This document shows positions 1-6,585 of a stretch of 64,000 nucleotides of DNA, one piece after another; within the stretch, counting starts at the first letter, position 1; each line of letters starts with the position of its first letter. Source of the DNA: Desulfobacterales bacterium (GTDB lineage: Bacteria > Desulfobacterota > Desulfobacteria > Desulfobacterales > JAFDDL01); assembly GCA_034003325.1 (NCBI GenBank), contig JAVEYW010000022.1, positions 1 through 64,000 of the forward strand, read 5' to 3'. Under the pieces are notes generated by a model. The model did not search any database. It was not told the origin of the DNA and was given only the letters and a program-made list of their open reading frames with translations. The translations under genes and the position numbers were made by a program.

Positions 1-126
1 ACGTCAGTCACCTCTCGGACGAATCGTCTTTTGAGTCCTCCCATTCATTATACGGAGATGTTTGTTCAGAGTGGTGATTCAACTATTTAACAAAAGGCAA
101 CTTATCGTACAGGATAAATTCGCCCT

Positions 127-193
127 GGCTTCAGCCCGATTTACTATTGCAATTGTCAATATTTTTCTTTATAAAAAGCGAGTTATTATCTCT
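127..193 (+). repeat. 67-bp direct repeat, left copy
   Basis: This stretch matches 3528-3594 at 65 of 67 positions (differences at the T/C in CAATTGYCAAT and the A/C in GAGTTMTTATC). The last 14 bases recur once more at 195-208. The left copy begins with half of the arm of the palindrome found intact at 3495-3540 and ends just before the hydroxylase gene remnant, so it probably marks the point where that gene was cut. Confidence 0.85.
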
Positions 194-208
194 CGAGTTC
201 TTATCTCT

Positions 209-607
209 TATGCAGTGCCGAATGTCTGGTATGATGCTTACGAGATCGGCCAGGCGATTAACCCGCTAAAGTGTAAAGAGCAGATCCATGGTGGGGCGGC
301 AATGGGCATTGGCATAGCGCCAAATGAATCTGCTCATCCATATTGGCCATCGCCAGAGTATGCTGTAGATAGCTTTGAGAGCTATGTGATCGCAACCGCG
401 GCAGATGTGCCTCCTGAAAGTCAGTATGCAATCCTTGACAATCCTCATCCTGACGGTCCGTTTGGTGCGAAAGGGTTTTGTGAAAGCTCAACCAATGTAC
501 CTGTTCCGGCCATCATAGCTGCCATTCATAATGCTGTAGGAGTATGGATCACACAGTTCCCGGCAACACCTGAAACTGTCCTTAAGGCCTTGGCAAAAAG
601 GCAGTAG
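209..607 (+). pseudogene. 3' remnant of a xanthine dehydrogenase-family molybdopterin subunit
   Basis: The frame reads through the repeat at 127-208 and then turns into about 130 residues typical of the C-terminus of xanthine/aldehyde dehydrogenase large subunits: GQAINP, then GGAAMGIG, then GPFGAKGFCESS, whose Glu sits where the catalytic base of the family lies, and a TPETVLKAL tail. A full subunit has about 750 residues, so roughly 80% is missing and the repeat has replaced the upstream part. It differs clearly from the intact subunit at 13731-16070 and is therefore a remnant of a second enzyme. No start codon belongs to it, and it is very probably not functional. Confidence 0.8.
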
Positions 608-719
608 GCTCAAGGCATCAGGAACCAAGGAATGCGACGGATGCGCTGCACGGCCTTATTCATAGTTCTGAGAAATGAATCAAATCATGGGGGGATTAAA
701 AAGAAAGGAGGAAGGGAAA

Positions 720-1214
720 ATGCTGAAAGAGCAAAAGGAAACATTGGCCCAGGCGGCCTATGACATGGGGTATAATTTTGAAAAAGTCTACCATGGGTGA
801 TCCCAGGCGGTGATGCGTGCCGTGCTGCACGCACTCGGTGTTCAAGAAGAAGCTGCATTCACAGCGTCGTTTGCTATGGCCGGCGGGTTGGGGCTCACGC
901 AGGAAACCTGCGGTGCCATAACCGGTGGCGCCATGTGTCTATCCATGCTGTCGGAAAAGTATGGTCGGTCCTGGGATAATTTCAACAAATGGGGTATGGA
1001 ACAAATAATTGACAGTCTCCTCAAGATCGGCAAGTTTGCAGAAAAATGTACCGAAATGATGGGGGGAAACAAATGCATAGATCTTGCCGGCATGGAGCTC
1101 AAAAATGCCGCAGATGTTGAAAAATATGTAGCCACCCCGAATTTTGAAGGTTGCTGCGTCAATTGCGCGAAGGTCGCTAAACTCGTTGTGGAAACGCTGC
1201 TGGACGAAGCTTAG
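720..1214 (+). CDS. C_GCAxxG_C_C family redox protein, probable selenoprotein
   Basis: The frame opens at ATG 720 after a strong ribosome binding site (AAAGGAGG at about 703-710) and has one in-frame TGA at 798-800. Read as selenocysteine, it gives 164 residues in which U27 follows GYNFEKVYHG and precedes SQAVMRAVLHAL. This is where the family (PF09719) has its first conserved Cys (NCAQAV-like). The later family cysteines follow: TCGAITGG, KCTEMMGG, KCID and GCCVNC. A bacterial SECIS-like hairpin lies directly after the TGA. The alternative, a GTG start at 810, would drop the conserved N-terminal helix and waste the strong ribosome binding site. Family members are small Cys-rich, presumably redox-active proteins; the substrate is unknown. 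Its place beside a hydroxylase remnant resembles the DVU_1555-type association in Desulfovibrio (from memory, not checked). Confidence 0.8.
798..833 (+). promoter_or_regulatory. UGA codon and bacterial SECIS-like hairpin
   Basis: After the UGA at 798-800 come 13 bases and then a perfect 7-bp stem (814-820 TGCGTGC with 827-833 GCACGCA) closing a 6-base loop CGTGCT. The loop starts 21 bases after the UGA and has G as its second base, followed by U. This fits the published bacterial SECIS rule: a small loop with G in its first two positions, about 16-37 bases from the UGA. Hairpins of this size also occur by chance. Confidence 0.65.
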
Positions 1215-1588
1215 CCACCTTTAATTCAATTTTCTTGCTCCCCATGATTGTCTCCAAGCTGCTTGGCCCAATGTCAGACCGGGTCAAGCAGCCGGATACG
1301 AATTGCCAGCGTCCAGTTCGTCCTTAAACACCTTTAGTAGAATTGAAACTGTTGGGATAGGCGCCAGGGACTGAGATCCGGTGAGGTGATAAGCCCCCCC
1401 CTTTTTGGGGACCGAAGTATAGAGGTCTTTCACTTTTGAAAATCGGCAACAAAGGAGGGAAAAATAGTCTAGTGGATAATCAAAAATCTAATTTGTGGGA
1501 TCGTCGACCAGAAGGAAGATCAACTTACCATTGGACTCGATGTGGGGCTACCTCTTTAAGCCTTAACAGGCGATACGGTTCATGTCCC
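1215..1588. other. gene-poor stretch
   Basis: No complete gene is visible. On the minus strand a frame ends at 1295-1297 (TGA) with ...LKVFKDELDAGNSYPAA, which reads like a protein C-terminus, but no family is recognised and there is no credible start. A run CCCCCCC-TTTTT-GGGG lies near 1394-1410. The stretch is best seen as part of the decayed region. Confidence 0.4.
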
Positions 1589-1893
1589 TTATTTTTGGTG
1601 CAGCCATGGCATGTTGCGCCAGTTTTCCCCGGCGGCTCGCACTTCTCTGCCGATGTTTTTCAACGCGCCACCAAATCCGGTCAGCTCATGCCCTTTAAAA
1701 TGGGCTACGGAGATGAGTACGTTGGCCTTGCCGATTTCGGCACCGAGCCGCACCGCAAACAAGCACCGCATGCGAAATGAATCGCTGCAACCGGGCCGCA
1801 GCCGACAATGCTGAATTGAGGCCTTCGCCACTCACAGGTGGGTTCGATAGCCTTTAACTCTTTCAGGACAACGACCTTTCCGGAAATACCCAT
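1589..1893 (-). pseudogene. DUF362-family (iron-sulfur) protein fragment, frameshifted
   Basis: On the minus strand the piece ending near 1589 encodes IGKANVLISVAHFKGHELTG followed by FGGALKNIG, the most conserved block of DUF362 proteins. Upstream coding sense continues in another frame (starting GISGKVVVLKELKAIEP near 1893), so there is at least one frameshift around 1750-1810. After KNIG the usual MGC and Cys-rich continuation is lost. DUF362 proteins are often fused to 4Fe-4S ferredoxin domains, but none survives here. It is non-functional. Confidence 0.65.
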
Positions 1894-2011
1894 TTTTAAG
1901 CTTACGAAAAAATAACCTTTACAAAATTATACGAAAGACTTTACATTAATATATACATTAGGTGGCCTACAGCTGCAATGAACGATATGGATGCTATTGC
2001 TGATAATTCTC

Positions 2012-3355
2012 ATGGGACAGCCCGTATCCGATCTCACGACCCCCGACGTCTATCGCCCGCGTAATCCACAAGCCAGTGGCTACTATCAATGCGTTCAAAA
2101 CCATTTTGAATAATTGGATCAGCTTTGGGATGACCGGGATGCACCTCATTTTGGATTTTGGCGCCCCCATGTCATGGATGTCATTCACCGCTATTTGGAT
2201 TGCGGCGATCTGCATTGTGGATTCGCAAGAGTTAAATGTTCGGAATGTGGTCATGAGTATCTGTTGGCATTTTCTTGCAAGCGGCGGCACTTTTGCCCTT
2301 CCTGCCACCAGAAGAGAGTGGTCGAATACGGCGAGTGGTTGTTGACGAATGTTTTGAAAGATGTTCCCCACCGGCAATGGGTCTTTAGTCTTCCGAAAAG
2401 ATTGCGGATCTACTTTATGTACGATCGTAGATTACTGGCAAAATTAAGCAAATGCGGTTGGAACGTAATACGCCCCTATTTAAAATCAGGCGTGTTAGAT
2501 GACGATGCCGTTCCCGGGGCCAGTATAGCGGTGCACACTTACGGAGATTTTTTAAATTTCAATCCCCATTTGCACGCCATCGTGTCGGACGGTTGCTTTC
2601 GTTCCGATGACACCTTCCGGATGGCGCCCGGTTTTATGGCCAAAGACCTCGAAAAGGCCTTTCAGCACGAGGTGTTAAAAATGCTTAAAAAAGAGGGAAA
2701 AATAAATGATGCCATCATTGAAAATTTGCTTTCCTGGCGCCATAGCGCTTTTCAAGTTTATATCGGCGGCAGGATTTTGCCGGATGACGAAACCGGTTTG
2801 GAAAAGTTGGCGAAATGCATTATCCGCGCCTGCTTTTCACAAGAACGAATGGACTATAAACCGGTGGAAAGATCCACGGACGGCGTGGCCAAGGTCATTT
2901 GCACATCCAAGGACGGCAGAACCCGGAAAACATTTGACGCATTGGATTGGCTGGCGCAACTGGTGATGCACATACCCGACAGATATGAGCAAACCGTACG
3001 TTATTATGGCTATTACTCGAACAAGTTGCGAGGCCTTCGCAAAAAACGCGATGAGGACGATGAGATACCAACCCTTATACCCGGCGAAATGTCATCAAAA
3101 GAATTCAGAAGGAATTGGGCGCGGTTGATCCAAAAGGTGTATGAGGTCGATCCCTTGGTGTGTCCCAAATGCCAGGGCGCCATAAAAATCATATCCATAA
3201 TCGATCAGCCTGAAATCATACAAAAAATTTTACTGCATCTGAATCTCTGGGATACGCGGAATCATGATCCGCCGCCTGAAAGCCCATCCTATATCCCCGA
3301 ATTAACCTGTGACGATTCGGATTCCCAAATTCCCGCTTATGACTATTGGAACTAA
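2012..3355 (+). pseudogene. IS91-family transposase with an early in-frame stop
   Basis: From TTG 2114 the frame gives 413 residues of an IS91/IS1294-type HUH transposase: an N-terminal zinc-binding domain (KCSECG, then SCKRRHFCPSCHQKR), the HUH pair in FNPHLHAIVSDG, and a catalytic-Tyr region YEQTVRYYGYYSNKL. A second Cys pair (CPKCQG) lies near the C-terminus. Family sense continues upstream in the same frame (MGQPVSDL at 2012, then YRPRNPQASGYYQCVQNHFE) but is broken by TAA at 2111-2113, where relatives have a sense codon. The real start was probably ATG 2012 or 1991. A restart at TTG 2114 could still give a nearly complete protein with all visible catalytic motifs, so activity cannot be excluded. 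The element ends are not defined. Confidence 0.8.
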
Positions 3356-6204: not shown

Positions 6205-6585
6205 TCAGCTCCACACCTCAGGTTGATATCCACCGGGAAGATGCGCGGTACCCTTCACACAGGGCAGCCCTGTCTCCAGATGCACGCGATCAATCATTGC
6301 ATCAAGGTGTTCACAGAACCCCCCATCGCTCATTTCCCACGCTTCCTTTCCCTTTTTTGAAAACAGACAGGTGCAAAAATGGATCACCTCCGCACCTTTG
6401 GACTTAAGAATTTTCGCCATGCTCACCGCATCATCCCCCGGGCAATGGCAGGTAAAAAGACCGGCAAGCTCACAACTCTCATAGCCGGCAAATCCTTCTT
6501 TTCTTTCTTGAAGACAGCGGAAACACCCTGTCATCGGGCATCGATCCATATTTTTTTCGCACCGAATAATGGCTATTTTGGACAT
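6205..6585 (-). CDS. CGGC domain-containing protein
   Basis: The 126 residues have the Cys/His pattern of the CGGC family (PF08821): an opening IAIIRCEKNMDRCPMTGCFRC, a central LAGLFTCHCPGDDAVSMAKI, then VIHFCTCLF and a terminal GFCEHLDAMI. Such proteins are predicted metal- or redox-binding proteins of anaerobes without a defined reaction. In most members the first motif ends in CPGCGGC-like spacing; here it is CPMTGC. It is the first gene of the three-gene operon, whose promoter should lie in 6586-6700. Confidence 0.8.
   Translation of the reverse strand: MSKIAIIRCEKNMDRCPMTGCFRCLQERKEGFAGYESCELAGLFTCHCPGDDAVSMAKILKSKGAEVIHFCTCLFSKKGKEAWEMSDGGFCEHLDAMIDRVHLETGLPCVKGTAHLPGGYQPEVWS

Follow-up and report, generated by a model that had tools for sequence, protein, structure and literature searches.

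The analysed window, a 64,000-nt stretch of contig JAVEYW010000022.1 from a Desulfobacterales bacterium, carries close to its start a gene with one in-frame TGA. Positions 720-1214 form a single forward reading frame running from an ATG at 720 to a TAG at 1212-1214, and its sole interruption is that TGA, at 798-800 (codon 27). The features of the locus are given below, each with its evidence in brackets.

704-711, + strand: ribosome binding site AAAGGAGG, 8 nt upstream of ATG 720 (read from the sequence)
720-1214, + strand: predicted C_GCAxxG_C_C selenoprotein gene, 164 aa with Sec27 (PF09719 match, codon usage, confident helical model)
798-800, + strand: in-frame TGA read as selenocysteine (Sec), residue 27, at the first invariant Cys of PF09719 (column TGC/TGT/TGA in 71/71 sites of the order; further TGA homologues from the phylum)
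814-833, + strand: SECIS-like hairpin, 7-bp stem 814-820/827-833, apical loop 821-826 CGTGCT with G second (recoding test, homologue comparison)
909-911, + strand: Cys64 of the C-G-A-x-x-G motif, invariant (alignment A2)
1074-1076, + strand: Cys119, nearly invariant (alignment A2)
1155-1157, + strand: Cys146, the last conserved Cys, invariant in A1 (alignment A1)

Protein profile searches, run with C in place of U, matched the product to PF09719 (C_GCAxxG_C_C) at 57.9 bits, above the gathering cut-off of 27, and the Cys pattern of the family is complete in it (U27, C64-G-A-x-x-G, C119 and C146). Reading frame and PF09719 alignment agree in placing the single in-frame TGA at the family's first conserved Cys, as a preliminary description of this DNA had proposed. 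Codon statistics taken from other genes in the genome favour this frame both before the TGA (+0.30 per codon) and after it (+0.19), and the other two forward frames score negatively. The gene is the sole PF09719 gene in its genome. Against the NCBIfam model TIGR01909 ('C-GCAxxG-C-C family (seleno)protein') the protein scored 36.5 bits, below the curated cut-off of 47.4; judged by this sequence score and NCBI's rule, it is classed as a divergent relative outside that subfamily. Identity to any full-length relative found was about 35% at most, and the nearest of these (31-35%) are all Cys forms. The DVU_1555 family C-GCAxxG-C-C protein (NF045669) is homologous to residues 26-133 (E 9.8e-12), but the score of the protein against that model lies below the cut-off (44.8 vs 103). 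Searches of plasmids and viral contigs returned no relative of the gene, and a search of genome contigs (P0001) returned no close one. The closest record by sequence, L103 (G633:C56:1-273; 47% over residues 74-163), has residue 27 cut off by a contig end.

Selenocysteine has been recorded in this family before. NCBIfam already catalogues it, as the naming of TIGR01909 as a '(seleno)protein' indicates; two reviews include it, one listing the C-GCAxxG-C-C family with Sec among known selenoproteins (PMC9312934) and the other giving two Sec forms, 1 and 2 (PMC13188914). The family is not mentioned by name in the text of the 2008 GOS paper. The TIGR01909/PF09719 (seleno)proteins and forms 1 and 2 have the same Cys pattern as the window protein and include Sec members on record; the window protein differs from the TIGR01909 (seleno)proteins in its score and in its low identity to full-length relatives. 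The earlier claim of a 'new selenoprotein gene' is therefore to be narrowed: the gene is a divergent new member, but Sec in the C-GCAxxG-C-C family is not new.

Homologues were gathered at two levels, in 389 genomes of the order and in 395 genomes of the phylum. Across the order-wide set, the codons at column 27 were TGC (28), TGT (25) and TGA (18, the window gene included) and nothing else, at 71/71 readable sites. A separate group of phylum homologues was fetched solely for having an in-frame TGA anywhere, and in these 20/20 genes the TGA lies exactly at column 27. TGA stands at this column in about 40 further homologous genes, among them genes from Desulfobacula, Desulfosudis, Desulfatitalea and Syntrophus MAGs. 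The order-wide fetch also brought up a single gene that departs from this rule (L071/L092): its TGA occupies a different codon, the G of GCA. An alignment with PF09719 members had been suggested as a check on residue 27, and every homologue covering the column has either Cys or TGA there. The type found in Desulfobacteraceae, Desulfobacula, Desulfosudis and Desulfatitalea MAGs (L033/L113), together with L129-L134, in which the motif reads YxGUSQ or YxGUTQ, shares the TGA column with the window gene but differs in being only ~20-30% identical to its product; L033 type genes and others in the order have a SECIS-like hairpin 3' of the TGA where tested. A quick tree of 103 sequences needed 11 Cys/Sec changes, of which just 3 were forced by well-supported branches. 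In this tree the window gene forms a long branch by itself, and the rows closest to it have Cys. One truncated row (L031) was left out of a second tree.

A two-domain fusion of the family also occurs (L073-L077, L032), with Sec in domain 1 and Cys at the equivalent site of domain 2. The stem that follows the TGA in these genes shows apparent compensating changes (AACTCAG/CTGAGTT, AACCCAG/CTGGGTT and AATCCAG/CTGGATT).

The SECIS-like hairpin with G in the second loop position that had been described downstream of the TGA was recovered at 814-833, with its loop, CGTGCT, starting 20 nt after the TGA. RNA folding bears out the 7-bp stem, but the energy alone is unremarkable (z -0.59 against dinucleotide shuffles). 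We also scored hairpins with a SECIS score of our own, which wants a G early in the apical loop at SECIS distance; the window's score was equalled or exceeded in 48/2000 synonymous recodings. The median p of this recoding test was 0.09 in 18 TGA genes vs 0.64 in 53 Cys genes, and the hairpin scores of the same two groups differed with a Mann-Whitney p of 6e-7, an optimistic value, given the kinship among the sequences and a score of our own design. A CGTG loop recurs at the identical distance from the TGA in three homologues (L044, L080 and L081) and 3 nt, or one codon, nearer in L070. By sequence comparison, SECIS-like hairpins are clearly more frequent behind TGA than behind the Cys codons of homologues, and it is this comparative part of the SECIS evidence that we judge to be strong. 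An Rfam search of positions 1-3000 gave chance matches alone.

Bacteria usually form Sec-tRNA by means of SelA, SelD and tRNA-Sec; SelB then brings it to a UGA that has a SECIS hairpin behind it. The genome contains SelA, a tRNA-Sec with anticodon TCA and a SelD that itself contains Sec (TGA in GAGUASK), as well as two formate dehydrogenase (FdhA) genes with TGA before His (CART-U-H and CARL-U-H). Thus, of the four genes proposed earlier as a check on the genome, selA, selC and selD are present, but selB is absent from the assembly: two models, TIGR00475 and PF09107, did not find SelB in this draft (G000, 97.6% complete). Full-length SelB was present in 15/15 other genomes, all relatives, that were searched. 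Because SelD and FdhA in the same genome need the same decoding, SelB is probably missing through an assembly gap. Several SelB candidates proved on inspection to be IF-2 (L004), LepA (L005) and TypA (L006), and two further ones were judged to be EF-Tu copies by length and score alone. A scan of the window for more read-through genes gave four weak candidates, none convincing. Elsewhere in the window, the minus strand at 6205-6585 encodes a CGGC-domain protein (PF08821), a further small protein rich in Cys with a putative metal or redox role.

Three things strongly support the Sec reading of the TGA: column 27 holds Cys or TGA in all covering homologues, Sec is in use in this organism, and the TGA has a SECIS-like hairpin behind it. 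We conclude that TGA 798-800 almost certainly encodes selenocysteine at a conserved Cys site of a real bacterial gene, and we put the probability that the gene specifies a 164-residue, all-helical C_GCAxxG_C_C protein with UGA translated as Sec at roughly 0.92. Against it stand the missing SelB, the ordinary hairpin energy, the Cys found in all of the nearest full-length relatives and a neighbourhood in which decay is conceivable. SelA, SelD and tRNA-Sec of this genome would make the Sec-tRNA, and a SelB presumed to lie in the assembly gap would deliver Sec at UGA 798-800 by way of the hairpin.

Two other accounts dispense with selenocysteine. Conventional ORF calling takes GTG 810 as the start and yields a 134-aa ORF (810-1214) without the family's first invariant Cys, just as had been predicted of gene finders. 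That the true protein begins there, lacking residues 1-27, is nevertheless extremely improbable: the alignment with homologues spans the TGA, beginning at residues 2-9, the ribosome binding site noted in the earlier description is indeed a strong one and precedes 720, with none comparable seen before 810, and a conserved Cys would be lost. The gene might alternatively be decaying, its ordinary Cys codon mutated to TGA. Its surroundings are of a kind in which decay could occur, with gene fragments and a mobile element: at the contig edge lies the C-terminal fragment of a molybdenum hydroxylase of the xanthine dehydrogenase/4-hydroxybenzoyl-CoA reductase type (62-607, + strand; its first ~50 residues are without match), and further on stand a DUF362 fragment (1589-1831, - strand) and, just beyond it, an IS91-type transposase (2114-3355, + strand; Zn_Tnp_IS91, Y2_Tnp). 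The absence of SelB from the assembly would also fit a pseudogene. Yet the only in-frame stop falls exactly on the Cys/Sec column, with no frameshift and no second stop, every other conserved Cys is retained, the coding signal persists on either side of the TGA, the hairpin is in place and homologues by the dozen have TGA at the identical position. We regard decay as quite unlikely, if a little less so than a start at 810.

An AlphaFold2 model built from a 40-row alignment has a mean pLDDT of 96.8, consists of helices throughout and shows residues 1-26 as ordered. Its outstanding match among solved structures is the split-Soret cytochrome c of D. desulfuricans (PDB 1h21, 'a novel iron centre'), with Z 13.3 over 136 residues at 3.2 A, the next best reaching 3.3; helical bundles can produce a Z near 13 by chance, but this match leads all others by ten units and the sequence motif is in line with it. 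Foldseek likewise ranked 1h21 first (E 0.16, probability 0.98), and a profile search against 1h21 gave E 0.0028 over the CGAxxG stretch. The likeness is one of fold and of this stretch; the two proteins differ in length (240 residues in 1h21 vs 164) and are 15% identical. Since the fold match stands far above the rest and the motif agrees with it, we favour, on the model, a metal (iron) or redox centre involving Sec27, Cys64, Cys119 and Cys146 as the likeliest role. These residues may form a centre like that of the split-Soret domain, in which the more reactive selenolate would tune or replace a Cys thiolate.

A redox-catalytic residue 27, as suggested earlier, is plausible, but the 1h21 match agrees at least equally well with residue 27 as a metal ligand. 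In its strict form, Sec27 would be a thiol-type redox catalyst working with a resolving Cys and binding no metal. Pfam does describe PF09719 as 'putative redox-active', and redox enzymes are considered to make up most of the predicted selenoproteins (PMC13188914), but the protein has neither a thioredoxin-like fold nor a UxxC motif, its U-S-Q-A corresponds to C-x-Q-C in the nearest Cys relatives, and its only fold match is an iron-centre protein. We therefore consider metal-free catalysis possible, with the odds leaning against it. Somewhat more speculative is an extension of the favoured metal or redox centre to the whole family, according to which C_GCAxxG_C_C proteins would be small iron-sulfur or iron-centre proteins like the split-Soret domain, with selenolate as a native ligand in the Sec members and repeated Cys/Sec exchange between lineages.

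Ordinary annotation pipelines would truncate this gene at 810, and the Sec reading corrects the annotation. It places the Sec of a little-studied family firmly at one of four conserved Cys. With Cys and Sec exchanged repeatedly at a single column and the hairpins going along with the TGA, the homologues form a useful data set, and the match to 1h21 gives the C-GCAxxG-C-C family a testable chemistry, with Sec as metal ligand or redox catalyst.
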